From positions 310,001-374,000 of IMG/VR virus record IMGVR_UViG_3300032334_002567: a stretch of 64,000 bases of DNA; one strand, 5' to 3'. The position numbers and the translations under genes are program-made. Source of the DNA: a virus. Positions 227 through 12,698 of the stretch are shown here, in pieces; within the stretch, counting starts at the first letter, position 1, and each line of letters starts with the position of its first letter. A model generated the notes under the pieces. It searched no databases. It was given only the letters and a program-made list of their open reading frames with translations, and was not told where the DNA came from.

Positions 227-232
227 AGGGGC

Positions 233-260
233 TTGACAAACTAATTGTACCCTGTAAAAT
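233..260 (+). promoter_or_regulatory. sigma70-like promoter merged with copy 1 of the repeated element
   Basis: TTGACA at 233-238, a 16-bp spacer and TAAAAT at 255-260. The TTGTACCCTG element lies inside the spacer and abuts the -10. It is the only one of the 33 element copies where I see a good -35. The 16-bp spacer matches the other sigma70-like promoters proposed in this window. Confidence 0.5.
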
Positions 261-285
261 GGAAGCAACACCCCCCGGAGATCCA

Positions 286-558
286 ATGATGACAAGCGTT
301 TATGCGAAGATTACTGGTCGTGGCGAGTTTCCAATGGATATGCTGCGGTATGACAGTTGCAGCCCTGCTACTGAGTCCGACAGCTATTTGATTGCTCGCA
401 CCTTTCATGACTTTGATAGGTGGGAGATTTTTGTGAAGTGCCGCCCGCTGGAGAAGAGGCGTTCTCCTTGGACGGTTGGCAGGTGGGAGAGCTTCGGTTG
501 CAAGATCGAAGAAATTGACTATCATCCGCCACTTACCCGCAACACACAGCTTGCCTAA
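286..558 (+). CDS. Small protein of unknown function (90 aa)
   Basis: The start is the first of two adjacent ATGs, six bases after the CCCCGGAG ribosome-binding site. An in-frame upstream start at 223 would translate through the promoter and the repeated element, so it is rejected. The product has mixed charge with several aromatic residues and no signal peptide or membrane segment. It lies just upstream of the tRNA. No family is recognised. Confidence 0.7.
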   Translation: MMTSVYAKITGRGEFPMDMLRYDSCSPATESDSYLIARTFHDFDRWEIFVKCRPLEKRRSPWTVGRWESFGCKIEEIDYHPPLTRNTQLA

Positions 559-564
559 GCTGTT

Positions 565-647
565 GCCGAAGTGGTGAAATTGGCATACACGCCAGACTCA
601 AAATCTGGTGCCCAAAAGGCGTGTGGGTTCGACCCCCACCTTCGGCA
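565..647 (+). tRNA. tRNA-Leu (anticodon CAA)
   Basis: The acceptor stem GCCGAAG pairs with CTTCGGC (640-646), followed by discriminator A647. The anticodon stem CCAGA/TCTGG closes a seven-base loop CTCAAAA with anticodon CAA, which reads TTG. A class II variable arm is present, and the T stem GTGGG/CCCAC has the TTCGACC loop. The 3' CCA is not encoded (ATA follows), so the end must be added by an enzyme; a nucleotidyltransferase of that family lies at 30477-31949. The gene starts seven bases after the preceding stop and is followed by a TTGTACCCTA element. Confidence 0.95.
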
Positions 648-655
648 TATTTAAA

Positions 656-777
656 TTGTACCCTAACAAAACGTTCCGATGGTGCCAACGCATTCGCTAG
701 GTGTTGGGCTTGGGTAAATGGTTGCCTTCTCAACCAGCCAACGGAACACTGATCTTAACCCCAACGGAGATAACCAA
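656..777 (+). promoter_or_regulatory. Long leader headed by a TTGTACCCTA element
   Basis: The element at 656-665 is followed by about 110 bases without a convincing gene before the CCAACGGAG site of the 778 gene, far longer than the usual 35-45 base leader. GGTTG and CAACC around 720-735 can form a short hairpin. An in-frame ATG at 718 could extend the next gene, but the conserved ribosome-binding site points to 778. Confidence 0.4.
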
Positions 778-1035
778 ATGGATAACTATGTTCATTTTGA
801 TGGTGAGTACGCTGATATTCCTGAGCTTACCCAAGGTGCTATCTTGCGGTATGTGCTTCAAAAGATTCCCCCCGGCAGTTTTCTGACGGCGGTTCTTTGC
901 AATGACCTCTATAACGCAACGGGTAGGGCAGATGCAAATAATCTGGTAGCTCTGCCTCTTATCGTGCGATGGTTTGCTAACAAGTGTCCGCATCTTTACG
1001 GTGCAGATAATATGTACAAGTACCTCGGCACCTAA
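778..1035 (+). CDS. Small protein of unknown function (85 aa)
   Basis: ATG seven bases after CAACGGAG. The product begins MDNYVHFDGEYADIPE, is weakly acidic at the N terminus and has a hydrophobic stretch (NNLVALPLIVRWFA) too polar at its edges to be a clear membrane segment. The stop is followed within ten bases by the next TTGTACCCTA element. No family is recognised. Confidence 0.7.
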   Translation: MDNYVHFDGEYADIPELTQGAILRYVLQKIPPGSFLTAVLCNDLYNATGRADANNLVALPLIVRWFANKCPHLYGADNMYKYLGT

Positions 1036-1088
1036 ATAAAAATTGTACCCTATAAAGTTGTCCTTCTAACCCCCAACGGAGCTAACTT

Positions 1089-1400
1089 ATGCGTTATGCT
1101 GATTCCCGCTGTGAGATGATCGAAACTTACCAGCCTGATCACACCTACACCTTTGTCGGCCCGTGCATCGTGACCGGCAAGGAGCAGCGTGTCACGGTCA
1201 AAGCTCCCGACCTTTTCAAGTATCGGACGGGAGCATATGTTCAGGACGCTTTCCCCTACCTTGATGCCGCTGATCGTGAGTTTCTCATGACCGGCATGAG
1301 TGCAGAAGGTTGGCTTTTGACCTTCGGTGACGGTGCGGAAGACGATGAAGATTATGAAGATGATTGGGATGATGATGGAGAGCTTGGGGATCGGGATTGA
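1089..1400 (+). CDS. Small protein with a strongly acidic tail (103 aa)
   Basis: The start follows CCCCCAACGGAGCTAACTT. Residues 1-80 look globular. The last 20 residues are almost entirely Asp and Glu, a feature shared with the products at 6420 and 1917. Acidic tails like this occur in DNA-mimic or protein-binding phage products, but that function is not shown here. The stop is directly followed by an element copy at 1402. Confidence 0.75.
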   Translation: MRYADSRCEMIETYQPDHTYTFVGPCIVTGKEQRVTVKAPDLFKYRTGAYVQDAFPYLDAADREFLMTGMSAEGWLLTFGDGAEDDEDYEDDWDDDGELGDRD

Positions 1401-1440
1401 TTTGTACCCTAACTCTAACTCTACTCCCAAAGGATTATCT

Positions 1441-1902
1441 ATGACAGTTCACGATAAGATGTGCACACCTAGTGGCTTACAGGAATTGGCAAAAGAATGG
1501 TGGGACTGTCTTGTCTCTGATGAGCTAGCTTTGAGCCTAAGTACAGCTTATATAAAAGCAACTGAAGGATTCGAACCTGAAGCGGGCTCGTTCTCTGTTC
1601 CTTGTCTATGCTCCTCCGGCACAGGCCAGATTGTTTGGTTGAAAAACAGAATCAATGATTTGAATCTATTGCCCGTAGGCGAAGCACGAATGCACGACGA
1701 TATCCCAGCTGTTACAACAGCTGTATTGCATGTAGGTTTTTTGTCTGTGTTCGAAACAGAAGAAATGGTTTGCCGATTACGCAACGAGCCTCTACGTCAA
1801 AATTGTGAAAACCCAGCAAGGTCGAAGATGTTTGCGACAGCTCAAAAGCAGGATGTGGCTCCGATAGATCGTACTGCGTCAATCGTTTCTAGATCAAATT
1901 GA
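1441..1902 (+). CDS. Protein of unknown function (153 aa)
   Basis: ATG at 1441 after CCCAAAGGATTATCT; the in-frame upstream ATGs lie inside the previous gene. It contains Cys-Leu-Cys near residue 58 and is predicted soluble. Base composition is visibly lower in G+C than in the neighbours to the right (4.4-12 kb), and genes from here to 3.3 kb use plain AGGA/GGAG sites rather than the full CCCCAACGGAG leader, so this stretch may have a different history. Confidence 0.65.
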   Translation: MTVHDKMCTPSGLQELAKEWWDCLVSDELALSLSTAYIKATEGFEPEAGSFSVPCLCSSGTGQIVWLKNRINDLNLLPVGEARMHDDIPAVTTAVLHVGFLSVFETEEMVCRLRNEPLRQNCENPARSKMFATAQKQDVAPIDRTASIVSRSN

Positions 1903-1916
1903 TTTGGGAGTATCAA

Positions 1917-2096
1917 ATGTCAATGAAAGTTTCTGAACTATCTGATTGGATCAAAACTCTTGAAAAAGATGATGTAGTCTGGATAGATGAGGGTGGACTA
2001 AACCTAGAAACTAAGGATGGAGCCTATCTGGAACTAGGCGGCAAAGTAGAGTTCTACGACGAAGATGATGACCCAAAAGGATTCTGGAGTAAATAA
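1917..2096 (+). CDS. Small acidic protein (59 aa)
   Basis: ATG eight bases after TTGGGAG; a second ATG two codons later is also possible. The sequence reads as helix then beta strands and ends in an acidic EDDDPKGFW stretch. It resembles small phage proteins of about 60 residues with the pattern SELxxWxKxL, but I cannot name a family. It sits in a run of closely spaced genes (1441-2566) with no intervening element copy. Confidence 0.65.
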   Translation: MSMKVSELSDWIKTLEKDDVVWIDEGGLNLETKDGAYLELGGKVEFYDEDDDPKGFWSK

Positions 2097-2098
2097 CA

Positions 2099-2257
2099 AT
2101 GACTAAGCCTTACTTGGTGATCAAAAACAACTGCGCCATTGGTGTTGTTTTTGCTGGGAGTGAAACCGATGCACTCGTTATCGCTTGTGAAGCATATTGC
2201 GATGGCGTGACTGTAGAGTTGAGCCGTCAAAGTGGTCTAAGATCAGTAGGAGTATAA
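2099..2257 (+). CDS. Small protein of unknown function (52 aa)
   Basis: ATG two bases after the previous stop, using GGAG at the end of the upstream gene as ribosome-binding site. It begins MTKPYLVIKNNCAIGVVFAG, a beta-rich pattern, and ends four bases before the next ATG. Tight packing on both sides supports it as a real gene of this small operon. Confidence 0.6.
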   Translation: MTKPYLVIKNNCAIGVVFAGSETDALVIACEAYCDGVTVELSRQSGLRSVGV

Positions 2258-2260
2258 CCT

Positions 2261-2566
2261 ATGGAATGGATTAGTTTTTTCGGGCCACGTCGTCCAATCA
2301 ACGGACAAAAGATTTTCTATTACGGTGAGTGCATCGGTGTTTGGAGCGGAAATTACAGCTTAGACTGGAATGATCCAGTTAGCCCCCATCGGATAATTTG
2401 TGGGGAAAAAAGCAATGATGAAGTCTTAGCCGAATATGGTTTGAACAATCTGACTATGATTGTAGACCGTATGGATGCACCGTGGTGGATGCCTGACGAG
2501 GGACAGGAAAAGCCCAAAAAGCCAGAAACCGACTACCCAAAGGATTATCCAAGTCGAGAGGGCTAA
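2261..2566 (+). CDS. DUF551-like small protein (101 aa), tentative
   Basis: Starts after TAGGAGTATAACCT. The N terminus (EWISFFGPRRPINGQKIFYYGECIG) resembles the W-x-S-x-x-x-x-P-x-x-G-x-x-V pattern of short phage proteins related to DUF551, and a WW pair occurs near residue 75. The C-terminal 25 residues are Pro/Lys/Glu-rich and probably disordered. Family assignment is tentative. Confidence 0.6.
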   Translation: MEWISFFGPRRPINGQKIFYYGECIGVWSGNYSLDWNDPVSPHRIICGEKSNDEVLAEYGLNNLTMIVDRMDAPWWMPDEGQEKPKKPETDYPKDYPSREG

Positions 2567-2654
2567 ATAAAACCATTGTACCCTAAAAGGTCGTTACCCC
2601 ATTTGCACTTGAACGACTAATTCCTAAAATCTAAAATATAAGGGGAGAATAAAA

Positions 2655-2855
2655 ATGCAAAAGTTTATTTTTACAAACGTGAAGATCGAATACTTTGATT
2701 GTGAATGCTGCAAAGGTATGAAACCACCAGCAACCACAGTTTCAGAAGGGCCATTTGAGATAATGGCTCCAATTGGCATCAAACCAGAAAACATCGTAAA
2801 TGAGTTTTTTGGCGAGCCGGGACGAGTCATTGATTTCGAATGTCAAATTACCTAA
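2655..2855 (+). CDS. Small protein of unknown function (66 aa)
   Basis: Strong AGGGGAG site eight bases before ATG. It contains CECC near residue 17, possibly metal-binding but without a second pair. Upstream, the element at 2576 is followed by a 70-base leader in which GTCGTT and AACGAC can pair. A clear terminator follows at 2879, so this gene ends a transcription unit. Confidence 0.7.
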   Translation: MQKFIFTNVKIEYFDCECCKGMKPPATTVSEGPFEIMAPIGIKPENIVNEFFGEPGRVIDFECQIT

Positions 2856-2878
2856 TTCATCATTATTGACATTCAAGC

Positions 2879-2912
2879 AGACCCTTGAGATAAATCTCAG
2901 GGGTCTATTTTT
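2879..2912 (+). terminator. Rho-independent terminator
   Basis: A 12-bp stem (AGACCCTTGAGA with TCTCAGGGGTCT, one G-T pair) closes a TAAA loop and is followed by ATTTTTATTT. It is immediately followed by a TTGTACCCTA element at 2915, so termination and re-initiation are placed back to back. Confidence 0.85.
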
Positions 2913-2935
2913 ATTTGTACCCTAAGGAGAATATC

Positions 2936-3229
2936 ATGTACAAACTATTTATCGATGATGTTCGTGACGCCCCGGATAGCCTCTGGACGGTGTGCAGATC
3001 ATCACATCAGGCTATTGAGCATATCAAGATTTATGGTATGCCAGCCCTTATCAGCTTTGACCATGACTTGGGCGGAGAAGACACCACCATGCTTTTCCTC
3101 CGTAGACTTGTGAACGAGCTTTGGGACGGTAAAACACCACCACCCAATTACAGAGTTCATTCTGCGAATCCTGTTGGCAGCGAAAATATCAAAAGCTTTA
3201 TGGAGAGTTGGAAAAAGTCGATTGAATAA
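2936..3229 (+). CDS. Cyclic-phosphate-processing receiver-domain protein (cREC-like)
   Basis: The 97-residue product begins MYKLFIDDVRDAP and continues with a central SFDHDLGG motif, the pattern of the small receiver-like family named cyclic-phosphate-processing receiver domain (cREC), common in phages. The acidic pair D7-D8 and the DHDLG motif would form the metal-binding site. In that family the proposed substrates are cyclic phosphate RNA ends; the function here is inferred from family only. The start follows CTAAGGAGAATATC, where the element itself abuts the ribosome-binding site. Confidence 0.7.
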   Translation: MYKLFIDDVRDAPDSLWTVCRSSHQAIEHIKIYGMPALISFDHDLGGEDTTMLFLRRLVNELWDGKTPPPNYRVHSANPVGSENIKSFMESWKKSIE

Positions 3230-3246
3230 ACTCTAAGGAGAGAGAA

Positions 3247-3330
3247 ATGTCTAAGTTGACTCTTGGCGATAAGATTCTTTTCACTGCGTGTTTTATTGCT
3301 GGCTGTTTTGTTGTTTATCTAATCAACTAA
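3247..3330 (+). CDS. 27-residue single-pass membrane microprotein
   Basis: AAGGAGAGAGAA precedes the ATG. The product is MSKLTLGD followed by a hydrophobic segment (ILFTACFIAGCFVVYLI) reaching nearly to the stop. It lies eight bases before the next start. Short membrane peptides of this kind recur in this window (11483, 12978, 5616). Confidence 0.6.
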   Translation: MSKLTLGDKILFTACFIAGCFVVYLIN

Positions 3331-3338
3331 GGAATAAA

Positions 3339-3605
3339 ATGACTGAGCTTTTTACCGACATTGCTATTGTTGTTATGTATCTTGGAACTGCTTTGGCGCT
3401 TTGTGCATTTGTTGGAATTGTTCTTCGGGTTGGTGATTTGGGATTTTGGTGCTTTGGGAAACTTGACGAATATCTGCAAGATAGGCATTTTGAGAAGCTC
3501 AGGAAGTCTTGGGAAAAGAATTGTACCCTAAAAGATTGTTCTAAACCCCAACGGAGTTCTTATGTCAATTCATATAACCAACTTTGTTCGACGCCAGACT
3601 GCTGA
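3339..3605 (+). CDS. Small membrane protein whose reading frame runs through an element copy
   Basis: AAGGAATAAA precedes the ATG. Residues 6-30 form one membrane segment, followed by a charged helix (DRHFEKLRKSWEKN). The frame then continues through the TTGTACCCTA element at 3521 and the leader of the next gene, overlapping it by 44 bases. Elsewhere the element follows the stop codon, so the last 27 residues may be a recent extension caused by stop-codon loss. Confidence 0.6.
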   Translation: MTELFTDIAIVVMYLGTALALCAFVGIVLRVGDLGFWCFGKLDEYLQDRHFEKLRKSWEKNCTLKDCSKPQRSSYVNSYNQLCSTPDC

Positions 3606-4119
3606 AAGCCATTTCTCGCATTGGACGATCAGTGACGAGGAACTTATCTTTTGTGTTAGCCAGAACATGGACAGGGCTCATAAGGGATACCGGGATGGAG
3701 TTATTCTTGTCCCGATTAGTCCCGAAGGCTTTTTCAGTGCTGTGGCTGAATTGCAGATCAATGACACTCTGAATGGTTCTTTTTCTTGCCGTCGAGCTGG
3801 CGAGGAACCACGAAAAAGTGTCTTTATGATTGGTGAGAAGGTTCCCGCCCAAACAGTCTGGGTTGTTTTATACGCTCATCACGTTCTTGCTGAAAAGAAT
3901 GAAAACGAGAGCGATGCCGATTATGAAATTGTGAGCATCAACACCAGTCCTAGTGTTGATCAAAAGCCTGCTCCTATGCCGCCGGAAACGCTTATTGCTA
4001 ATCACTTTGAGCTTTCTGGGGGAACTGCAACAAATATGACCGATAGCGAGTTTGTTGCATCGCTGCGTGAAAGTGTGATGTATTGGAAAGATAAAGTTCA
4101 GGTTCAGCCTAACCTCTAA
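3562..4119 (+). CDS. DUF3228-like protein (185 aa)
   Basis: The start follows CCCCAACGGAGTTCTT. The protein has the layout I associate with DUF3228: an FVR start, a GYRDGVILVPI segment near residue 47, a GEEPRKS segment, then VVLYAHHVL and a C-terminal PMPPETLIANHFELSGGT stretch. That family is of unknown function and occurs in proteobacteria and phages. It is soluble and not cysteine-rich. The assignment rests on remembered motifs, so it is moderate. Confidence 0.65.
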   Translation: MSIHITNFVRRQTAESHFSHWTISDEELIFCVSQNMDRAHKGYRDGVILVPISPEGFFSAVAELQINDTLNGSFSCRRAGEEPRKSVFMIGEKVPAQTVWVVLYAHHVLAEKNENESDADYEIVSINTSPSVDQKPAPMPPETLIANHFELSGGTATNMTDSEFVASLRESVMYWKDKVQVQPNL

Positions 4120-4128
4120 AGGAATAAC

Positions 4129-4401
4129 ATGAGAAGCACAACATTGCCTCTTTTTGAAAAGTGGTACGCAACAGCAACACCAGAGCAAATTGAGTTTGTT
4201 GATCAGGTTTATGCTATTTGTGAAGAAAACTACGAAAAGGGTGGAGATAGAATTGTTGAGTGCTATGGGCCAGAGGAAATCATCGAAGATTTCAATACAA
4301 TAGCTGAAGTTCGAGAGCACTGCAATTTGATGGTTGAGCAAGAGCTAAATGCCCGTTGGGGCGAAGATGATGACCCAGAGTTGAGTCGTGGCAAGTGGTG
4401 A
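4129..4401 (+). CDS. Small acidic protein (90 aa)
   Basis: Follows the 3562 gene by nine bases with an AAAGGAATAAC site, so it is probably co-transcribed. It is mostly helical and Glu-rich, with WYATATPEQIEFVDQVYAI near the N terminus. No recognised family. Confidence 0.65.
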   Translation: MRSTTLPLFEKWYATATPEQIEFVDQVYAICEENYEKGGDRIVECYGPEEIIEDFNTIAEVREHCNLMVEQELNARWGEDDDPELSRGKW

Positions 4402-4459
4402 GTTCTAAATAAATTGTACCCTAACAGGTTGTTCCGAATCACCCCTAACGGAGACAATC

Positions 4460-5023
4460 ATGTCTTACGAGAACGCTCCCCAGACGATTATGCTGGCGAC
4501 CAATTGCTGCTGCTGTGGTCGTCCGCTTTGCGATGCCATCTCTGTTGAGCTTGGTATCGGCCCGGAGTGCCGTGGTGGAAACAACGGTACTCTGACCGAG
4601 GAGCAGCGGCGTGAGTGCAACCAGCTTACACATGCTGCTGCCCTTGCGGCTCAGGAAGGAAAGATCGAAAACGTCCGATGGTGTTCGGAAGCTATTCGTG
4701 AGCTTGGCTTGCCAGAGCTTGCGGATAAGGTGGCTCACCGCTTTGTGAATGCAGAGCGGACGGCGAAGATCACCATTCGGATGGAGGACGGTATGCTCCT
4801 CGTCACTACGCCTTACAAGCGTTCGATGAAGGATGAGTTTACCGCCGCTTGGCGTAATGTCCCCGGTCGGCGGTGGGTTAGCCGGAAGCGGTGCAATGCG
4901 GTGCCTGTGAGCAGCAAGCCCCACTTGTGGGCTTTGCTCAAGCGGTTCTTCCCCGGCGAGTTCGGCATGGGCCCGAATGGGGTGTTCAGGGTTCCTGCCG
5001 AAAGCAAGAACGCCGCCGCATAG
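4460..5023 (+). CDS. Cysteine-rich (DUF6011-like) protein (187 aa)
   Basis: After the element at 4414 and CCCCTAACGGAG. Residues 15-40 contain CCCCGRPLCD and a GIGPECR motif, the pattern of DUF6011-like zinc-binding phage proteins (C-x-x-CGRxL...GxGPxC). The C-terminal part (from about residue 100) carries beta strands and the motif VPGRRWVSRKR, also seen in SNF2/HARP-associated domains. A role in DNA or RNA binding is inferred. A strong hairpin follows the stop by five bases. Confidence 0.7.
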   Translation: MSYENAPQTIMLATNCCCCGRPLCDAISVELGIGPECRGGNNGTLTEEQRRECNQLTHAAALAAQEGKIENVRWCSEAIRELGLPELADKVAHRFVNAERTAKITIRMEDGMLLVTTPYKRSMKDEFTAAWRNVPGRRWVSRKRCNAVPVSSKPHLWALLKRFFPGEFGMGPNGVFRVPAESKNAAA

Positions 5024-5027
5024 CATC

Positions 5028-5068
5028 CAAACGGGGCGGGAGTGAAAATAATCCTCCCGCCCCGTTTG
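5028..5068 (+). terminator. 15-bp perfect G+C-rich hairpin
   Basis: CAAACGGGGCGGGAG (5028-5042) pairs without mismatch with 5054-5068, leaving an 11-base loop. There is no proper T run, so it may act as an mRNA-stabilising 3' end or a factor-dependent stop rather than a classical intrinsic terminator. The same type of hairpin follows four other genes here. Confidence 0.65.
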
Positions 5069-5107
5069 TGATAAGTGATAAATCCCTTTACTCTTCTTTT
5101 GTGAATA

Positions 5108-5281
5108 ATGGAAAATATAAATTCTGTAGATACGATCAAAGAAATTGCAAGCCGTTTTTCTTGTATTCCCTTGAATGATATGACTTTTGCCGAAAAGGAC
5201 GTAGCAAATCTTTTGCTTGAAAAAGGATTTCTAACAATCGGTATAGATCATTGCGGTAAAAGAGTTTTTCATACTCTATAA
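5108..5281 (+). CDS. Small protein of unknown function (57 aa)
   Basis: The ATG has only a weak purine stretch upstream, and the region is A+T-rich compared with its neighbours. The product is helical (SVDTIKEIASRF...EKDVANLLLEKGF) and resembles a small winged-helix, but is too short to be sure. The stop lies just before the element at 5287. Confidence 0.5.
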   Translation: MENINSVDTIKEIASRFSCIPLNDMTFAEKDVANLLLEKGFLTIGIDHCGKRVFHTL

Positions 5282-5329
5282 AATAATTGTACCCTAGAAA
5301 GTTGTTCGATCCCACTCAAAGGAGTTGAC

Positions 5330-5455
5330 ATGGATCCCAACTACGACTTCTTTCTGGACTTCACGCAGGACTTGCAGAACGACGCAGAGTATAACGCTTG
5401 GCTCGACGAGCAGGAGCTTTACTCGCAACAGCAGGAAATGCCCGAAGACTTCTAA
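5330..5455 (+). CDS. 41-residue acidic protein
   Basis: AAAGGAGTTGAC precedes the ATG, after a standard element and leader at 5287. The product is Asp/Glu/Gln-rich (MDPNYDFFLDFTQ start) and predicted helical. It is followed by a non-coding stretch that retains a ribosome-binding-site-like CCAACGGAG. Confidence 0.65.
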   Translation: MDPNYDFFLDFTQDLQNDAEYNAWLDEQELYSQQQEMPEDF

Positions 5456-5466
5456 TTTCCTTCTAA

Positions 5467-5567
5467 CCAACGGAGCTTTACCAGTGGTGTAAATACGAGG
5501 TTTTGGCGACAAGAGCCTCATCCAAGTCGCCCTAGGGCAGTCAGGCCACTGTCCTAGATTGTTTTTA
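5467..5567 (+). ncRNA. Candidate structured RNA with pseudoknot-capable stems
   Basis: After a CCAACGGAG site the only frame is GTG-GTG-TAA, so no protein is made. GGCGAC (5505-5510) pairs with GTCGCC (5526-5531), GAGG (5497-5500) could pair into its loop with CCTC (5516-5519) as an H-type pseudoknot, and CTAGGGCAGT (5532-5541) pairs with 5548-5557, followed by ATTGTTTTTA like a terminator. It may be a small RNA, or the remains of a lost gene. Confidence 0.4.
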
Positions 5568-5615
5568 TTGTACCCTAGTAAGTTGTTCAATCCCAACCAT
5601 CAACCGGAGCTAACC

Positions 5616-5771
5616 ATGACCAGCTTTCTTCTGACTGTGAGCAGCTTTCTCGTTTCTGCCGCCCAAACGCCCTATCTGGACGGCTACTTTGCTGGTGCTG
5701 TGGCTATCGCCGTAACGATTGCGGTGAATGCTATTGTCATTGACTGCATCTACCGCTTCGGTACAAAGTAA
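5616..5771 (+). CDS. Small membrane protein (51 aa)
   Basis: CAACCGGAGCTAACC precedes the ATG. Two hydrophobic stretches (residues 3-16 and about 25-46) flank a short polar turn (TPYLDGY), suggesting a hairpin in the inner membrane or a signal sequence plus one anchor. It has its own element and leader at 5568. No family is recognised. Confidence 0.65.
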   Translation: MTSFLLTVSSFLVSAAQTPYLDGYFAGAVAIAVTIAVNAIVIDCIYRFGTK

Positions 5772-5819
5772 TTTGTACCCTATAGAAGTGTTCAATCCTA
5801 ACCCCAACGGAGTTTCACG

Positions 5820-6164
5820 ATGAAGTGCATTAGCAATACTTTGGTGATTACTGCCGATATTTGGGAAGATCCGGGTGACTACCCTAATTCCCTTGCCGGT
5901 GGCCCGCTTCCCAGCCACTCTTACATTGAATCCAGCGGTGAACTGGTGCTGGAAGCTGAGAATAACGAGGAACTCGAAAGTTTCGACGCCCTAAACGATT
6001 GGTTCTCTGACTGGATTCATTGTGGTGCAGAGGCCAGCACTATAGGTGCATACGTTGATGTCCCCAGTTATTGGCATATTGACTGGGAGTTCAAAGTGGA
6101 GGGAAACATTCTCACCGTGACGGTCGGTGATGATTGTGAAGCTAACGAGCCAGATTATGATTAA
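5820..6164 (+). CDS. Acidic protein of unknown function (114 aa)
   Basis: Standard element at 5773 and CCCCAACGGAG leader. Beta-rich with a very acidic composition; the C terminus reads VTVGDDCEANEPDYD. The stop runs directly into the next element at 6165. No motif is recognised. Confidence 0.7.
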   Translation: MKCISNTLVITADIWEDPGDYPNSLAGGPLPSHSYIESSGELVLEAENNEELESFDALNDWFSDWIHCGAEASTIGAYVDVPSYWHIDWEFKVEGNILTVTVGDDCEANEPDYD

Positions 6165-6211
6165 TTGTACCCTAACAGGTTGTTCTGATTTCCTCTAAAA
6201 CGGAGAGACAA

Positions 6212-6728: not shown

Positions 6729-6731
6729 AAC

Positions 6732-6776
6732 ACGGTTGCCGGGGCGGGTTGAGACTAACTCCCCGCCCCGGCCCGT
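6732..6776 (+). terminator. G+C-rich hairpin after the 6420 gene
   Basis: GCCGGGGCGGG (6738-6748) pairs perfectly with 6762-6772, and ACGG with CCGT extends the base across a two-base bulge. It lacks a T run. Near-identical hairpins stand at 9699 and 11947, including the flanking CACGGTTGCC, so this is a repeated unit. Confidence 0.6.
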
Positions 6777-6803
6777 TGGGGCTTTCAAACAAGGAGACAA
6801 GTA

Positions 6804-7019
6804 ATGTCTGTATATTTCAACAAGCAAATGGCTAATCTTATCAACGTCTATGTCAAGTGTCCTACCAGTGGTCGAACGCTGGACGCAGATAGGCACGATG
6901 ACAAAGTATTGTGCAACTGCCCAGAGGCTATGAGCCGGGGCGGTACCCATATTGTTTCAAAGTGTGAACCGTCAACGGTCGAACAGTTCATGGTAGAAAA
7001 CAATTTTACAGAGAACTAA
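6804..7019 (+). CDS. Small protein with spaced cysteines (71 aa)
   Basis: CAAGGAGACAAGTA precedes the ATG. No element copy lies between this gene and the preceding one, so it depends on read-through past the hairpin or on an unseen promoter. Single cysteines (VKCPTSGRT, CNCPEA, SKCEPS) resemble a Zn-ribbon with the spacing C-x18-C-x-C-x14-C. No family name is offered. Confidence 0.6.
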   Translation: MSVYFNKQMANLINVYVKCPTSGRTLDADRHDDKVLCNCPEAMSRGGTHIVSKCEPSTVEQFMVENNFTEN

Positions 7020-7028
7020 AACCCACCT

Positions 7029-7066
7029 TAGGGTACAAATAAAGTAATTAAAATAATTGTACCCTA
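7029..7066. repeat. Facing pair of elements (inverted 7029-7038, forward 7057-7066)
   Basis: TAGGGTACAA and TTGTACCCTA form a perfect 10-bp inverted repeat separated by 18 A+T-rich bases. In DNA this could be a two-site operator or divergent promoter pair; in read-through RNA it would form a hairpin. Confidence 0.7.
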
Positions 7067-7102
7067 GAAAAGTGTTCGATAACCCCCAACGGAGAATCCC
7101 TC

Positions 7103-7333
7103 ATGCCAGTCGAAGTTCACACCAGCGGTTCTGTTTCTTATACCGGTGAAGACGGCGTAGCTCTTTTCCGTCTCATTACTCTTCACTCTGCCCTGCGCCT
7201 TCAGGCCACCACCGGCATGAAAGCGTCAAGGATCAGTGCTGTGGCTTGTGCCAAGCGACTTGGCTATACAGGCCGCACCGCAAAGGCTCTGCTTGCAGAC
7301 ATCGAACGGAAGCACCCTGAGCTGAAGAAGTAA
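7103..7333 (+). CDS. Small basic helical protein (76 aa)
   Basis: CCCCCAACGGAG leader. The C-terminal half (SRISAVACAKRLGYTGRTAKALLADIERK) reads like a helix-turn-helix, so DNA binding is possible; the spacing is only approximate. It lies after the facing element pair at 7029-7066, which would place a regulator next to its possible operator. That link is inference. Confidence 0.65.
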   Translation: MPVEVHTSGSVSYTGEDGVALFRLITLHSALRLQATTGMKASRISAVACAKRLGYTGRTAKALLADIERKHPELKK

Positions 7334-7378
7334 ATTGTACCCTAGTTAATCGTTCGACACCCCCAACAAGAGGATGCA

Positions 7379-7582
7379 ATGAGTAACATCGAAGACAAGA
7401 TGGAAGCAATCGAAAAGTGGCGCAATGACAATTTGTGCTTTCTCGACGGCCAGCCTGCAAAGATTGTGGGTTGGAAAGAAAAGTTTCCAATCGTGAGCCA
7501 AATCGACGGCCCTCTTGCTTTTGAGTGGTCGTGGGCCGCTGTCAACAGGATCATGTCCGGTGATCGACAGTTCAAGAGCTAG
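7379..7582 (+). CDS. Small protein of unknown function (67 aa)
   Basis: AAGAGGATGCA precedes the ATG; here the leader has CCCCCAACAAGAGG instead of CAACGGAG. The product has an N-terminal helix (EDKMEAIEKWR) and a beta-rich rest with KIVGWKEKF. No family is recognised. Confidence 0.65.
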   Translation: MSNIEDKMEAIEKWRNDNLCFLDGQPAKIVGWKEKFPIVSQIDGPLAFEWSWAAVNRIMSGDRQFKS

Positions 7583-7630
7583 ATCATTTGTACCCTATTA
7601 AAGCGTTCAACACCCCAACGGAGAATGATC

Positions 7631-7957
7631 ATGGAATACACCGAAGCCCTCAAAGTTCTTGGCAAGCGTGATTCGAAGAAAGTCGGAAACAACACCTACA
7701 TGATCCGGCTGGGTTCGGACATCGGTATTCGACTTCACAACACCGTTGTGGTGACCATCCATCCCGACAATACCTACACACTCAATAGCGGTGGATGGCA
7801 GACAGTGACAACAAAGGATCGGATCAACCAGTATTCACCGGTTCGTGTGTATCAATCAAAAAGCGTTTGGTATGTCGGTCAAGGCGAGCTGTTTTACGAC
7901 AACATGAAAGTCGGTGTCGTTTGCGGTGAGCCGCTAGCTTTAGGAATTGTACCCTAG
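7631..7957 (+). CDS. Small beta-rich protein whose stop lies inside an element (108 aa)
   Basis: I chose the ATG at 7631 over 7625 for ribosome-binding-site spacing. The sequence (KVGNNTYMIRLGSDIGIRLHN... TYTLNSGGWQTVTTKDRIN) matches a recurrent phage pattern of small beta proteins with the NTY-x-x-R and TVTTKxRIN motifs. The last codons GTA CCC TAG are the element at 7947 itself, so the element supplies the stop codon. Confidence 0.7.
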   Translation: MEYTEALKVLGKRDSKKVGNNTYMIRLGSDIGIRLHNTVVVTIHPDNTYTLNSGGWQTVTTKDRINQYSPVRVYQSKSVWYVGQGELFYDNMKVGVVCGEPLALGIVP

Positions 7958-7996
7958 TAGGTTGTGTAACCACCCCCAACGGAGTTGTGAAAAAAC

Positions 7997-8278
7997 ATGA
8001 TGAACTACAGCGGTTGTAACAGCTGGATCTACATCTACGCCATCGGTGGCAATTGGAACCCCGGCCCCAGCGGTGACGAGTTCGTGGGCTGTGCCTACGA
8101 CGCCTCCACTGCCCTCAGCCTGCTCGACTTGGTCGAGTTGAAGGGTGGCTATGCCGTCAGCCTGCACGGTGACAACCTGCATACGCTCAATGCCGTCAGC
8201 GGCGAGTGTGGTGTGCGGGAAGCCCGTATCATGTTCAAGCTCTGGAAAGAGAAAGAGGCGGTCGTTGTCGCTGGGTAA
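7997..8278 (+). CDS. Small protein of unknown function (93 aa)
   Basis: CAACGGAGTTGTGAAAAAAC precedes two adjacent ATGs, with longer than usual spacing. It is rich in Gly, Trp and Tyr (WIYIYAIGGNWNPGPSG) and soluble. No family is recognised. Confidence 0.65.
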   Translation: MMNYSGCNSWIYIYAIGGNWNPGPSGDEFVGCAYDASTALSLLDLVELKGGYAVSLHGDNLHTLNAVSGECGVREARIMFKLWKEKEAVVVAG

Positions 8279-8331
8279 CAATAAATAAATTGTACCCTAA
8301 AAGAGTGTTCGATCCCAACGGAGAAGCGATC

Positions 8332-8475
8332 ATGGAAATTAAATTCAACTTCAAAACACGTCAGTACGACGTTTGCATCACATTCTTCGACGGCAGAACC
8401 CCCATAAATGTTTGCTCTTTCTACAAAGAGTCGGATGCTCGCGCCTACGTCATGGTTCACAATGTCAAGTGTTAG
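8332..8475 (+). CDS. Small protein of unknown function (47 aa)
   Basis: CCCAACGGAGAAGCGATC leader, identical in its last part to that of the gene at 8737. Beta-alpha pattern (MEIKFNFKTRQYDVCITFFD...). Flanked on both sides by element copies (8290, 8490), a complete one-gene unit of under 200 bases. Confidence 0.65.
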   Translation: MEIKFNFKTRQYDVCITFFDGRTPINVCSFYKESDARAYVMVHNVKC

Positions 8476-8534
8476 ATTCAATAAATAAATTGTACCCTGA
8501 CAGAGTGTTCGATCCACCCCAACGGAGTTTTGAA

Positions 8535-8687
8535 ATGACCGAAAACGAAATCAATGTTCTGGAAGAGGCCGCATCGCACATTCGAAACGATGCTTACAAC
8601 TGCGATAGCAGTCTGGATCGCAAGTATTTCGAAAAGCTTGCCGATAAGATCGAAGACATTATCGCCAAGCATAATCAAAGCAAATAA
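8535..8687 (+). CDS. Small helical protein (50 aa)
   Basis: CCCCAACGGAGTTTTGAA precedes the ATG. Two predicted helices (NEINVLEEAASHIRNDA and SSLDRKYFEKLADKIEDIIAKH), probably a helical hairpin. One-gene unit between element copies 8490 and 8689. Confidence 0.65.
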   Translation: MTENEINVLEEAASHIRNDAYNCDSSLDRKYFEKLADKIEDIIAKHNQSK

Positions 8688-8736
8688 ATTGTACCCTAGA
8701 TGATTGTTCGATTCACACCCCAACGGAGAAGCGATC

Positions 8737-9117
8737 ATGGCAAGCTGGTACACCGTCAGCGAGAGCAAGATTCAGTGGGCTCCCATCGGCACCCGTGTTC
8801 TGAAGACTGGCGAGACTAAGCCGAAGTTTTCCCGGATCGGCGTCCGTATCAATATGGTGGACGGTAGCTGGTGGTTCCACAGCTTCAAGCACGATAGCTG
8901 GACGCAACACTATCCCCGGAAGCAGGCCACCGACAAGCTGGGACGGCCCATTTTCGAGGATGGTCAGCCGCTCCTGCGACCGGAACGCAAGGAAACCTAC
9001 CGCAACTGGATGGCGGTTGTGAGAGAGTTCGGCACTCGACTGCCCGCTCTGGTTGTCGCTCTGGAAAACGGTCACGCCGAAGCTCTGCTAGCCGAAGCAG
9101 AGAAAACGGCAGCGTAA
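8737..9117 (+). CDS. Protein of unknown function (126 aa)
   Basis: Standard element at 8689 and CCCCAACGGAG leader. Basic, Trp-rich middle (DGSWWFHSFKHDSWTQHYPRK), then a helical Ala/Glu-rich end. No membrane segment. A stable nested hairpin follows the stop. Confidence 0.65.
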   Translation: MASWYTVSESKIQWAPIGTRVLKTGETKPKFSRIGVRINMVDGSWWFHSFKHDSWTQHYPRKQATDKLGRPIFEDGQPLLRPERKETYRNWMAVVREFGTRLPALVVALENGHAEALLAEAEKTAA

Positions 9118-9124
9118 AACGTGT

Positions 9125-9181
9125 GCTAGGGGCGGCAAGGCTCTACGGCCAAAAGCCGCGAAACTGCTAGCCGCCCCTAGC
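9125..9181 (+). terminator. Nested G+C-rich hairpin
   Basis: GCTAGGGGCGGC (9125-9136) pairs with 9170-9181, and inside it CGGC (9146-9149) pairs with GCCG (9155-9158) around CAAAA. No T run. The downstream GGGGTAC at 9187 faces the forward element at 9204 as a partial inverted copy. Confidence 0.6.
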
Positions 9182-9253
9182 CCGTTGGGGTACTTATAAA
9201 TAATTGTACCCTAAAAGTGTGTTGCGAACGCCCCTCTTTTTCAAGGATGAAAA

Positions 9254-9424
9254 ATGTACGCTCTGACGATGATCATAGGTTTTCTTGGCTACGGGTTCGG
9301 GTACGAGGGTTGTGAAAAAGGAAAGATATATTTCGGCGTGTATACCCCCAAAGCCGAATATGGTTGGGTCATGACAGAAAAAGACGTTTATCTGGATACC
9401 GTGTACCAGAAAACTTCTAAATAA
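9254..9424 (+). CDS. Small protein of unknown function (56 aa)
   Basis: CAAGGATGAAAA precedes the ATG; the leader here departs from the standard (CCCCTCTTTTTC replaces CCCCAACGG). The first 16 residues are hydrophobic and Gly-rich, possibly a signal anchor, followed by a Tyr-rich polar part. The stop lies one base before the next element. Confidence 0.6.
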   Translation: MYALTMIIGFLGYGFGYEGCEKGKIYFGVYTPKAEYGWVMTEKDVYLDTVYQKTSK

Positions 9425-9471
9425 ATTGTACCCTAGTTGATTGTTCGATCCAACCCCAACGGAGAATGACA

Positions 9472-9690
9472 ATGCCAAATATCAACTGGTTCGACGGTCA
9501 GAATGCGGTTGGCAAGTACGTTATGGAACTCATGTACGACGACGGTAGCGTCAGCTACATGAAAAATGAGAACTACGAGCAGATTTGCCACTACTACCGG
9601 CTTGCTTTGGAAATGTCGGAAGTGGTGGGTGCGACCATCTACAACCCAAAGTGGCAAGTAGTTTGCTCGACAGCACGGGCCGCAGCGTGA
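9472..9690 (+). CDS. Small protein of unknown function (72 aa)
   Basis: The ATG at 9472 was chosen over 9466 for spacing. Pattern: two beta strands with DDGSVSYMKNEN, then a helix, then WQVVCSTARAAA. The ending ARAAA before a CGGTTGCC hairpin recurs in the gene at 11645 (KAAA) and at 8737 (KTAA). Confidence 0.65.
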   Translation: MPNINWFDGQNAVGKYVMELMYDDGSVSYMKNENYEQICHYYRLALEMSEVVGATIYNPKWQVVCSTARAAA

Positions 9691-9698
9691 ACACGGTT

Positions 9699-9734
9699 GC
9701 CTGGGCGGGTTGAGACAAAACTCCCCGCCCTGGC
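9699..9734 (+). terminator. G+C-rich hairpin, second copy of the 6738 type
   Basis: GCCTGGGCGGG (9699-9709) pairs with CCCGCCCTGGC (9724-9734) with one T-T mismatch. It is followed by TTAGGGTAT, a partial inverted element facing the forward one at 9752. Confidence 0.55.
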
Positions 9735-9796
9735 CTGTTAGGGTATTTATATTGTACCCTATAGAAGTGTCAGCCACCCCAAACACAGGAGCCAAT

Positions 9797-9958
9797 ATGA
9801 GCAATAACGAAAAACCGTACTGCTTCGAAGAAGCCCGTTTCAAGCGTGAAATGGAATACGTGGCTCGTAAGCTCAAAGAGGCGTTGGAACTCAAGGAATA
9901 CGCCAAACAACTGGCAAAAGAAAAAGAACAAAAAGAGAAAGAGGAAAGCCGGGACTAA
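9797..9958 (+). CDS. Lys/Glu-rich coiled-coil protein (53 aa)
   Basis: ACAGGAGCCAAT precedes the ATG. From residue 12 onward it is an uninterrupted charged helix (EARFKREMEYVARKLKEALE then repeated KEKEQKEKE). The terminator hairpin overlaps its last codons. Confidence 0.65.
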   Translation: MSNNEKPYCFEEARFKREMEYVARKLKEALELKEYAKQLAKEKEQKEKEESRD

Positions 9959-9978
9959 CACCCCCGGTTCTCTTTTTT
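9947..9978 (+). terminator. Rho-independent terminator
   Basis: CCGGG (9949-9953) with CCCGG (9963-9967), extended by G-T and A-T pairs, nine-base loop, then TCTCTTTTTT. It overlaps the stop codon of the 9797 gene. An inverted element follows at 9988. Confidence 0.65.
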
Positions 9979-9987
9979 AGTCGGCCA

Positions 9988-10033
9988 TAGGGTACAAATA
10001 AAATAAAAAGGGATATACAATAATTGTACCCTA
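9988..10033. repeat. Facing pair of elements ahead of the structured RNA
   Basis: Inverted TAGGGTACAA at 9988-9997 and forward TTGTACCCTA at 10024-10033 with a 26-base A+T-rich centre. The forward copy heads the structured RNA unit at 10041. Confidence 0.65.
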
Positions 10034-10040
10034 TAACAGT

Positions 10041-10155
10041 GTGAATGATTGCGAGGCCGCACCATCGGCACTACTGTCCGGTTGCAAACGGCAGTAACTC
10101 GCGGGAGCGGTATGCCGAAAGGCAGCGAGTGGTGCACCCCATCGCAATCGTTCAC
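10041..10155 (+). ncRNA. Candidate novel structured RNA, about 115 nt
   Basis: No gene fits between the elements at 10024 and 10166. The two ends, 10041-10054 and 10142-10155, pair over 14 bp with one G-T. Inside, GCACCA (10059-10064) pairs with TGGTGC (10130-10135), enclosing two arms. One is TACTG/CAGTA plus CCG/CGG (10072-10096, one bulged T, eight-base loop). The other is CTCGC/GCGAG (10098-10102 with 10125-10129), topped by TGCC-GAAA-GGCA (10113-10124), a GNRA tetraloop. The fold is manual; the family is not one I recognise. Confidence 0.55.
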
Positions 10156-10209
10156 AACAAAACAATTGTACCCTAGAAAAGTGTTCGATTCACCCCAACG
10201 GAGACGATC

Positions 10210-10545
10210 ATGACTTTCGTCAACCTGACCCCGCACACGATCACTGTGGTTCTCGACAATACCAGCGTGCAATTCCCGGCTTCTGGCAACGTGGCCCGTG
10301 TTTCCACCAGTCGAGTCTCTGGCCCCACGCTAACCGTCTACGGCGATTCTGTCGGTATCCAGACTTCCCGTGTCGAGTTCGGGGCAGTCGAGGGGCTTCC
10401 CGATCCCGTGGACGGCACGGTTTACATTGTGAGCGGAATGGTCGCAGCCCGTGTCAACCGGCCCGACGTTTTCGCTCCCGGTGAACTGGTGCGTGATGCA
10501 AACGGCCAGCCCACCGGCTGCAAGGGTCTGACTTGCAGCGGTTGA
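10210..10545 (+). CDS. Conserved phage protein of the NLTPHTI type (111 aa)
   Basis: CCCCAACGGAGACGATC leader. It begins MTFVNLTPHTITVV, a start I know from a widespread family of small phage and plasmid proteins of unknown function, followed by the usual SG-x-x-ARV segment and a YIVSGMVAARV strand. Beta-rich, no membrane segment. The family assignment is from memory of the N-terminal motif. Confidence 0.75.
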   Translation: MTFVNLTPHTITVVLDNTSVQFPASGNVARVSTSRVSGPTLTVYGDSVGIQTSRVEFGAVEGLPDPVDGTVYIVSGMVAARVNRPDVFAPGELVRDANGQPTGCKGLTCSG

Positions 10546-10602
10546 TTATTATAATTGTACCCTATAGAAGTGTTCGATCCCAACCCCAACGGAGACTCAC
10601 GA

Positions 10603-11043
10603 ATGAACGACATTCTTCTCGCCGCCCTGACCAGCTGCTTCAGCAAGATGGCAAAGGCCGCTGGCCCGATTGCCCCCGGCCTGCACCAGGTCGATGAAAC
10701 GATCACGATGCGGGTCAAGGGCGAGGTGCTGAAGTCGGACGACGAAACCTACGTCCCGACGATTGCGATTCCCGTCAAGGCCGTGATGGCTACGTTGCTC
10801 CCCCGGTTGGGTGCGACACGGGAGGCTGCGATGGAAACGCTTATCGCCGCCATGACTGAAGCGGTCAATCTGGACAAGCTGGGCGATGAAACGCTCAAAG
10901 CCCGGATGAAAGACGTTGACGCGGCTTTCGAGCATGTGCAGAACGTGCTCGACGCCCTCCCGCCAAAGACACGGACGGGAAAGACGAACGTGGACGTGAC
11001 CCTTGTGGTCGCTCCCACGCCCGCCGTCGCACTTGTCCCGTGA
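10603..11043 (+). CDS. Protein of unknown function (146 aa)
   Basis: ATG after CAACGGAGACTCACGA. Mostly helical with a beta segment near residues 35-60 (ETITMRVKGEVLKSDDETY). The C terminus is Ala/Pro/Val-rich. It resembles small single-strand or RNA-binding phage proteins only in outline. A G+C-rich hairpin follows. Confidence 0.65.
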   Translation: MNDILLAALTSCFSKMAKAAGPIAPGLHQVDETITMRVKGEVLKSDDETYVPTIAIPVKAVMATLLPRLGATREAAMETLIAAMTEAVNLDKLGDETLKARMKDVDAAFEHVQNVLDALPPKTRTGKTNVDVTLVVAPTPAVALVP

Positions 11044-11047
11044 CGAT

Positions 11048-11096
11048 ACGGCATCGGGGGCGGGAGGAACTAACAACTCCCGCCCCCACTAGCCGT
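11048..11096 (+). terminator. G+C-rich two-part hairpin
   Basis: GGGGGCGGGAG (11056-11066) pairs perfectly with 11077-11087, and ACGGC (11048-11052) with GCCGT (11092-11096). No T run. It ends nine bases before the element at 11105. Confidence 0.6.
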
Positions 11097-11152
11097 TTGT
11101 GCAATTGTACCCTATTGGTTTGTGTGATTCGTCCCTTTACTTTGGAGCAGTT

Positions 11153-11335
11153 ATGGAAGCGAAAATCGAGAACGGCTTTCTGGTTCTGCGAGTCCCGATG
11201 AATGCAACGCCGATTCGTTCGTCTACCGGCAAGACTTTGGTGGTTGCCTCGACCTATGGCAACAAGGCAACCGAAGTGACGGTGGACGGCAAGACGGTCA
11301 CCGTGGGCGTCAACGCCTATATCAAGGCCGCTTGA
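11153..11335 (+). CDS. Small beta-rich protein (60 aa)
   Basis: TTTGGAGCAGTT precedes the ATG. Five short beta strands; contains STGKTLVVAST, which looks like a phosphate-binding loop but is too short and lacks the rest of a P-loop fold. This pattern matches small phage proteins of the type IxxxTGKTLVVAST..GN. A strong terminator follows. Confidence 0.65.
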   Translation: MEAKIENGFLVLRVPMNATPIRSSTGKTLVVASTYGNKATEVTVDGKTVTVGVNAYIKAA

Positions 11336-11355
11336 CCCCAACGGTTCGGATCGAA

Positions 11356-11393
11356 AGCCGGAGGGGACAGCCACCCCCTCCGGTTCTTTTTTT
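11356..11393 (+). terminator. Rho-independent terminator
   Basis: CCGGAGGGG (11358-11366) pairs with CCCCTCCGG (11375-11383), loop of eight, then TTCTTTTTTT. The same stem recurs at 12470. An inverted element follows at 11403. Confidence 0.85.
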
Positions 11394-11402
11394 AGCCCGC
11401 CA

Positions 11403-11439
11403 TAGGGTACAAATAAATATATAAAATAATTGTACCCTA
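11403..11439. repeat. Facing pair of elements
   Basis: Inverted TAGGGTACAA at 11403-11412 and forward TTGTACCCTA at 11430-11439 with a 17-base A+T centre, directly after the terminator at 11356-11393. Confidence 0.7.
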
Positions 11440-11482
11440 GATAAGTGTTCGATCTAACCTTCCCTCTCACTTGGAGTCAACG

Positions 11483-11551
11483 ATGATCGCTCTCGTTCTC
11501 GCGTTTGGCCTTGGTTTCGCCGCCATTTCTGCCGTTTACTGGGTGCTGTAA
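11483..11551 (+). CDS. 22-residue membrane microprotein
   Basis: TTGGAGTCAACG precedes the ATG, after a standard element at 11430. The whole product (MIALVLAFGLGFAAISAVYW plus VL) is one membrane helix. A dedicated promoter-like element for so short a gene suggests it is real rather than chance. Confidence 0.55.
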   Translation: MIALVLAFGLGFAAISAVYWVL

Positions 11552-11577
11552 AGCTCCCAGTCTAACACCTGAGTGAT

Positions 11578-11602
11578 TAGGGTATAAAGTAATTGTACCC
11601 TA
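11578..11602. repeat. Closely spaced facing pair of elements
   Basis: Inverted TAGGGTATAA (one change) at 11578-11587 and forward element at 11593-11602, only five bases apart, so close to a single palindromic operator. Confidence 0.6.
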
Positions 11603-11644
11603 GATAAGTGTTCGATCCGATCCCACCCCAACCGGAGACGCACG

Positions 11645-11938
11645 ATGAAGAACGCTTTCGACCGCACGAACAGCATGAAGAACAAGCTCAAGGCCGATTG
11701 GAACCGGATGGTGGGGGAACTGGTGTCCATCCCCGCCGGTTGCCAGATTCACAGCCTGACGCTCACGCAGACCAACTTCGGTTGGGTCTACGCCCGGAAG
11801 CACGGCCAGCCCGTGCCGGTCGCCCAGTTGCGGAACGCCGCCGTGACGAAGGGTTACTGTATCCTGCACGACGGCCCCAACTTCCGGGTGGCCCTCCCGC
11901 CGAAGCGGAACGGGGAGCCGGTCAAGGCCGCAGCGTGA
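11645..11938 (+). CDS. Protein of unknown function (97 aa)
   Basis: CCCCAACCGGAGACGCACG precedes the ATG. Basic, with an N-terminal helix (DRTNSMKNKLKADWNRMVGE) and a beta-rich rest. An overlapping frame at 11608-11967 is also open but has an Arg/Pro-rich, low-complexity product and no ribosome-binding site. Confidence 0.7.
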   Translation: MKNAFDRTNSMKNKLKADWNRMVGELVSIPAGCQIHSLTLTQTNFGWVYARKHGQPVPVAQLRNAAVTKGYCILHDGPNFRVALPPKRNGEPVKAAA

Positions 11939-11946
11939 ACACGGTT

Positions 11947-11981
11947 GCCGGGGCGGGTCGAGACTAACTCCCCGCCCCGGC
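11947..11981 (+). terminator. G+C-rich hairpin, third copy of the 6738 type
   Basis: GCCGGGGCGGG (11947-11957) pairs perfectly with 11971-11981. GGGGTAC at 11988 faces the forward element at 12006. Confidence 0.6.
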
Positions 11982-12054
11982 CCCGTTGGGGTACTTGTAT
12001 TTATATTGTACCCTATAGAAGTGTTCGATCCCCACCCCCAACCGGAGCCGCCCC

Positions 12055-12444
12055 ATGTTGAATGAAGCGTTCTTTCAGGTGTGCAACGATGCCGTCCCCG
12101 CAAAGTCCAGCTACGTCTCGCTCTACGTCAACGTGCCGTACTACGGTGGGCCGGAGGAAGGTGGATGGTGGGGCAGTGACACCGCACTAGTCGCTCACTA
12201 CAAGTGTGACAGCCAGCCCCATGCCGAAGCTGTGAAGGCCCGTGTCGAGGAGCTGGCCCAGCAGTTGAGCGACGATGCCCGCCGGTCGTTTGGTCAAGCC
12301 TGCAAGGCCCAGTGTGAATGGCTGGACGCACGTGGGTTGGACGCCGACTACCTGCCCGAAGTGGACGGGGAGGAAACCTACTGGGTCGCCGTCGAGGATC
12401 GCCCCGGTGAACACGCCAGCCAAGGGTGCAGGCACTACGAATAA
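12055..12444 (+). CDS. Protein of unknown function (129 aa)
   Basis: CAACCGGAGCCGCCCC precedes the ATG. N-terminal Tyr/Gly-rich part (SYVSLYVNVPYYGGPEEGG), then a helical middle and an acidic C terminus. The last gene of the small-gene array. A shadow frame on the other strand (12128-12466) is Arg/Pro-rich and rejected. Confidence 0.65.
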   Translation: MLNEAFFQVCNDAVPAKSSYVSLYVNVPYYGGPEEGGWWGSDTALVAHYKCDSQPHAEAVKARVEELAQQLSDDARRSFGQACKAQCEWLDARGLDADYLPEVDGEETYWVAVEDRPGEHASQGCRHYE

Positions 12445-12469
12445 AATTGTACCCTATCAAGCACACCGA

Positions 12470-12502
12470 CCGGAGGGGACAGCCAACCCTCCGGCTTTCT
12501 TT
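12470..12502 (+). terminator. Rho-independent terminator
   Basis: CCGGAGGG (12470-12477) pairs with CCCTCCGG (12487-12494), loop of nine, then CTTTCTTTTC. It begins only 14 bases after the element at 12447, so that copy would give a transcript of about 40-50 bases, a terminated short RNA or simply an array end. Confidence 0.7.
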
Positions 12503-12513
12503 TCAGCCCGCCA

Positions 12514-12552
12514 TTGGGTACAAATAAAGTAATACATAATAATTGTACCCTA
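12514..12552. repeat. Facing pair of elements at the array end
   Basis: Inverted TTGGGTACAA (one change) at 12514-12523 and forward TTGTACCCTA at 12543-12552, 19 A+T-rich bases between. Confidence 0.6.
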
Positions 12553-12698
12553 GTAATATACAGGAGGGTATTACAAAGATAATAATACAGAAATAAAAAG
12601 CGAAAACCTTTTAAAAAAATTGTACCCTAGGTACCCTCCCCCCCGCAATTACTGTCTTATTTTTTAAGTCGTCCTGACTTTTTTTCCCGTATTAGCAC

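Follow-up and report, generated by a model that had tools for sequence, protein, structure and literature searches.

A putative phage-specific promoter recurs as a connector between the small genes of an array shared by related huge phages

The 64,000-nt window analysed here spans positions 310001-374000 of a virus record 381,443 bp long (G000). Its right part carries a T4-like tail module, which encodes baseplate proteins resembling gp25 and gp6 together with a tape-measure-like protein of 4404 aa that contains internal duplications (e.g. VEYKVDILFMHDSANIRESLEEAATEAKAMIAERLG twice). The first 12.6 kb of the window belong to an array of small, mostly uncharacterised genes lying in one orientation, many of them headed by the same short element. 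The features to which we refer are, in window coordinates:

1-12629, + strand: single-orientation small-gene array, the 3' quarter of 50 kb, in units of element, leader, putative ribosome site and gene
245-254, + strand: first copy of the element in the window, TTGTACCCTG
564-648, + strand: tRNA-Leu (CAA) within the array
656-665, + strand: copy with a long leader insert before the gene at 781
1043-1052, + strand: copy of a typical unit, with its gene at 1089
7029-7066, both strands: inverted copy (7029-7038, -) and forward copy (7057-7066, +), with an AT-rich spacer between them
8290-8334, + strand: complete unit head, consisting of AT-rich block, TTGTACCCTA, GTGTTCGATC, CCCAACGGAG and ATG
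9988-10033, both strands: inverted copy (9988-9997, -) and forward copy (10024-10033, +), with a terminator-like hairpin ahead
10034-10160, + strand: strongly structured non-coding stretch that occupies a slot flanked by two copies (fold z-score -6.2)
11367-11439, + strand: composite joint, combining a GC-rich hairpin terminator and its T run with an inverted copy (11403-11412) and a forward copy (11430-11439)
12006-12015, + strand: copy after a terminator-like hairpin (~11940-11995), with its gene at 12055
12447-12629, + strand: geneless array end, with forward copies at 12447, 12543 and 12620, an inverted near copy at 12514 and a hairpin
20424-21332, - strand: sigma70-family protein of 303 aa with regions 2 and 4, a candidate recogniser
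38024-51238: the 4404-aa tape-measure-like protein

The core of the element, TTGTACCCT[A/G], occurs 33 times on the + strand between 245 and 12629, as the first-pass annotation had counted: 31 copies are exactly TTGTACCCTA and two, at 245 and 8490, are TTGTACCCTG. A one-mismatch search of the whole window returned 39 matches where 4.1 were expected, a number reached in none of 100 shuffles; past 12629 the remaining 51 kb hold only one more. The reverse strand of the window carries three exact copies (7029, 9988, 11403) and two near ones (11578, 12514), and each of these inverted copies is followed by a forward copy. Extending the search to the full contig, as the annotation had suggested, gave 71 forward and 4 reverse exact copies, nearly all at 272,015-322,629, and the control pattern, read backwards, had no copy in the 381 kb. 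The array is about 50 kb long (contig 272.0-322.6 kb) and ends sharply at window position 12629; its confinement to the first 12.6 kb, as originally described, is correct within the window, but 38 kb of it lie upstream. A 145.9-kb contig with the same array belongs to the same virus and is not an independent case.

The element had been said to head almost every small gene. In the array part of the window about 29 of about 38 genes do have their own copy, but no gene follows the copies at 12447, 12543 and 12620, and the one at 10024 precedes the structured non-coding stretch; a few copies overlap the end of the preceding gene. Copies without genes also close the array of the related phage G002 (292986-293013), and in both phages these look like empty slots. 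The last part of the array has a G+C content of 50-57%, which falls to about 33% just beyond (window 12630-14000); the arrays of the relatives G001 and G002 are likewise G+C-richer than their own flanks. A five-member family of paralogous repeat proteins lies within the array at contig 274.2-276.9 and 304.7-305.4 kb.

Alignment of the 71 copies reveals an AT-rich block at -7 to -1, the core (block 1), then weakly conserved purines and TGT. Two further blocks had been attributed to most copies. This proved too generous: block 2, GTGTTCGATC, matches at 8 or more of 10 positions in 14 of the 33 window copies (2% of random positions), and block 3, CCCCAACGGAG, at 9 or more of 11 in 16 of 33 (10% of random positions). 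Block 2 stands at a constant +5 from block 1 in good copies, and block 3 next to the start codon. The distance from block 3 to block 1 varies while its adjacency to the ATG is constant, the behaviour of a Shine-Dalgarno sequence. Over the 38 kb of array that lie upstream of the window, blocks 2 and 3 are mostly missing and block 1 is retained, which makes block 1 the essential part. In our reading, block 1 and its AT flank form the recognition site, the leader begins with block 2, and ribosomes bind at block 3. The host sigma70 pattern TTGACA - 17 - TATAAT is absent: logos and a positional test showed no -10 behind the copies and no -35 ahead of them above random, bearing out the earlier statements that a shared -35 is lacking and that the first block is unlike sigma70. 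TTGTAC as a sigma70 -35 and TACCCT as a sigma70 -10 were also considered, and dropped when no partner motif was found for either.

A search with a 710-aa structural-module protein identified 72 loci in viral contigs. Two related phages, with about 70% identity in the structural-module protein, have the same core in a syntenic array, and two further virus types have the core variants TTGTACTCT and TTGTACCTACAG. G002 (340 kb, 70% identity) carries 59 copies of [G/T]TGTACCCT[A/G/T] at 265-293 kb, with a contiguous 26-bp consensus, TAGGTCYAKTGTACCCTAGTGGGTGT. The whole-genome one-mismatch count showed no excess in G001 (532 kb, 67%); in the region ahead of its tail module the most over-represented 9-mer is TGTACCCTA, with 14 forward copies and no reverse copy against 0.12 expected, and 17 copies take the form TTTAGAGRTTTGTACCCTA. 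The TTGTAC variants of G006, TTTTACGCACTTGTACTCT, and of G005 (near-identical to G007), AATTGTACCTACAGG, lie behind terminators, at hairpin-plus-T-run sites. Repeats of G003 and G004 were left out because they look like coding or both-strand repeats; that of G004, TTGCACGGATGTACTTA, is clustered in both orientations, unlike those of the other genomes.

The same RuvB-like gene (61-66% identity) opens the arrays of G000, G001 and G002, from which we take the array locus to be homologous in the three. Only 7 of the 104 ORFs of the G000 array have a counterpart in G002, and 4 of 104 in G001. The core is conserved across related huge phages, with genome-specific flanks, and conservation is higher for the connector than for the genes behind it. 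Phage records contained no DNA match for the array. Twelve single matches to the pattern in bacterial genomes, scattered over unrelated contigs, are taken as chance, and so indicate no host. Our partial coverage of the literature on huge-phage promoters and intergenic repeats yielded no description of the element.

The position of the copies points to a site of transcription initiation. A start codon with a ribosome site is found within 60 nt of 85% of the G000 copies, compared with 27% for random positions; the same test gave 76% against 32% in G002 and 65% against 26% in G001. A terminator is followed by an element within 80 nt in 10 of 11 cases in G002 (random 0.17), 7 of 9 in G001 (0.06) and 9 of 18 in G000 (0.11), although most G000 copies have no recognised terminator ahead of them. 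The gap between hairpin and element in G002 is only about 25 nt, which leaves no space for another promoter. The G002 copies found behind terminators are mainly of T-type (9 of 13, against 1 of 45 of G-type).

Two copies are also followed by stretches that look untranslated. Window 10034-10160, 127 nt between two copies with a predicted fold of -60.7 kcal/mol, contains no convincing gene and matches no Rfam family; it looks like a non-coding RNA occupying its own slot. A second structured stretch (z -4.2), at contig ~198.8 kb, is right behind a copy far from the main array; it sits just downstream of a conserved sigma gene. Such slots suggest that the element also serves untranslated RNA. In both stretches the first stem opens 15-16 bases past the initial T of the core, as expected if the RNA starts there.

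An element acting in RNA, a processing site or translation leader that cuts one-gene messages from a long transcript, would account for the many copies inside gene runs without terminators and for the 32 G-type copies of G002 that start at the stop codon of the preceding gene; the separate hairpin connector of G001, described below, could be such a site. Yet no consensus structure was found in 21 leaders, Rfam matched no family other than a tRNA, conservation is strongest upstream of the leader, and the invariant CCC shows no compensatory changes in G002. Copies directly behind terminators, moreover, require transcription to start anew, which processing does not explain. We consider an RNA-level role unlikely.

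The inverted copies bear on another reading, that the element is the operator of a phage repressor or activator acting on promoters that we did not recognise. An inverted core stands upstream of the forward core at a set distance in 11 of the 17 G001 copies (31-33 nt) and in three G002 copies (23 nt); like the pairs in the window, these could be divergent promoters or a paired site. Most copies, however, are single and asymmetric and adjoin no other promoter motif, so that an operator appears quite improbable. Of the three possibilities first offered for the element (promoter, repressor operator, RNA-processing site), the evidence thus favours the promoter and leaves the other two unsupported.

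What would recognise such a promoter? The annotation had named a phage sigma factor or a phage polymerase. The layout of the element, an AT-rich block, an 8-base core, CTA-NN and a purine start, is like that of T7-family promoters, the consensus of G002 runs uninterrupted for 26 bp, and in G002 and G001 the CTA is followed by two variable bases and GG(G). Some G000 copies read CCCTATAGAAGTG, which we take to be close to the SP6 promoter. A single-subunit polymerase of the T7/SP6/N4 type is nonetheless unlikely, since no PF00940 match exceeded the cut-off in G000, G001, G002 or relatives in a search that does detect the T7 and N4 enzymes; G000 being a metagenomic contig of uncertain completeness, such a gene may sit outside it. 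The only weak PF00940 match in G000, in the 4404-aa tape-measure-like protein, was rejected, as a motif scan found no catalytic motifs and the protein had no such Pfam match. A search for the beta-prime subunit (PF04997) likewise gave no match above cut-off in G000, G001 and G002. With T7-like and multisubunit phage polymerases searched for and not found, we prefer a sigma factor acting on the host polymerase.

G000 has at least three sigma70-family proteins. One of 302 aa (contig 197.5-198.4 kb, outside the window), placed by PHROGs among phage sigma factors, has full-length counterparts in G002 (55%) and G001 (49%) that share its region-4 helix, TKERVRQLKEKGL, and is a better candidate recogniser than the 303-aa protein at 20424-21332. 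Its recognition of the element is our inference from co-occurrence, and sigma genes are also present in relatives that showed no such array.

Taken together, the single orientation of the element relative to the genes, its site behind terminators, its contiguous non-sigma70 motif, its conservation and the presence of sigma genes lead us to regard it, with a probability of roughly 0.7, as a phage-specific non-sigma70 promoter, probably for host RNA polymerase carrying a phage sigma, that serves as the connector in the array; the arguments are those of position. Host polymerase with the phage sigma would recognise the core and RNA would begin a few bases downstream, about 11-16 bases after the core's first T; the transcribed leader would open with block 2, and block 3 (CCAACGGAG) would be the ribosome-binding site. 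Since every small gene would have its own copy, a gene dropped into the array could be expressed at once.

The related phages bear on how genes may enter and leave. Between G002 and its close strain G020, which are mostly 90-96% identical, the arrays differ by eight replacements or indels. Ten of the 16 ends of these lie within 30 nt of an element, where 12% would be expected and none of 2000 random sets was as extreme, though the element itself helps to set where alignments end. Several right-hand ends coincide exactly with TAG, the stop codon at which the G002-type element starts. As the elements sit at gene borders, the exchange unit is the whole genes between connectors; this does not prove that the connector causes exchange, for ends at gene borders fall near elements anyway. 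The repeated connector may nevertheless offer a place for homologous recombination, such that genes turn over fast and connectors stay, and in G002-type phages it also provides the stop codon of the preceding gene.

Exchange that ends at an element, together with one-gene units in one orientation, is also what would be seen if the element were the boundary of a site-specific recombination cassette, comparable to integron attC or Xer sites. Integron arrays do share with this one the one-gene units, single orientation and repeated joint. Here, however, there are no attC-like paired arms and no integrase: a tyrosine recombinase was found in none of G000, G001, G002, G005, G006 and G020, with the control positive in all 14 genomes. 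The joint, moreover, is on the 5' side, apparently as promoter and ribosome site. Homologous recombination gives the same result, and a cassette boundary seems to us hardly credible.

As a promoter, the element can be set beside known phage types. T4 late promoters are short motifs without a -35, used by host polymerase with the phage sigma gp55. The present element resembles them in its short -35-less motif and in the phage sigma proposed for it; it differs in not being TATAAATA, of which the array has one forward copy against 33 elements, and in that the array is not the structural module. TATAAATA was examined in the structural module as well, and set aside at three forward and two reverse copies in 51 kb. 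Late promoters of T7 and SP6 are similarly contiguous over about 20 bases and numerous, each serving one gene or a small group, but the matching polymerase gene was not found here.

The closest likeness is to the PeSLs (promoter-early stem-loop) of T4-type phages, which passages of PMC4503421 describe as a terminator plus early promoter between small genes, dense where genes shuffle, and as proposed mediators of that shuffling (Arbiol 2010, doi 10.1093/gbe/evq006; Comeau 2014, doi 10.1093/gbe/evu129; both via PMC4503421). T4 early promoters strongly match host sigma70 elements (PMC2988021). Our element resembles PeSL cassettes in its working, with a stem-loop terminator joined to it in the proportions given above, and differs in promoter type: the sigma70 early promoter (-35/-10) that defines a PeSL is absent. 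It differs further in having one near-invariant 10-base core in about 70 copies in a single genome, with genome-specific flanks, and in carrying the preceding gene's stop codon in one lineage. Among the huge phages of Al-Shayeb et al. 2020 (PMC7162821) the nearest named record is LR756511 (595 kb), at 44% identity in the structural-module protein; the 47 kb of it that were examined showed no conspicuous element of this kind.

These comparisons allow a broader reading, which we put forward tentatively and at somewhat below even odds: that a clade of huge phages maintains a gene-swapping array on its own promoter type, in which one short phage-sigma promoter, varying in detail from virus to virus, supplies transcription start, leader and recombination joint (and, in one lineage, a stop codon), enabling any incoming ORF to be expressed. 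If true, this would explain how dozens of small accessory genes can be both retained by huge phages and rapidly replaced, expression signals remaining constant as the genes change. The motif would also help to locate accessory arrays in huge-phage genomes that lack annotation and whose gene content says little by itself.

Two other connectors were seen among the relatives. In G001, at 213.5-229.8 kb, a second type, TTTCCGAACCT...AGGTCTTCC, is present in 16 copies; the stem sequence of its hairpin varies between copies, with pairing kept in many. A second connector in G005, AATTGTATTTTTGAAACGGAACTTCCGTATCACT, heads single genes 21 times, some copies ending in CACTATAG.
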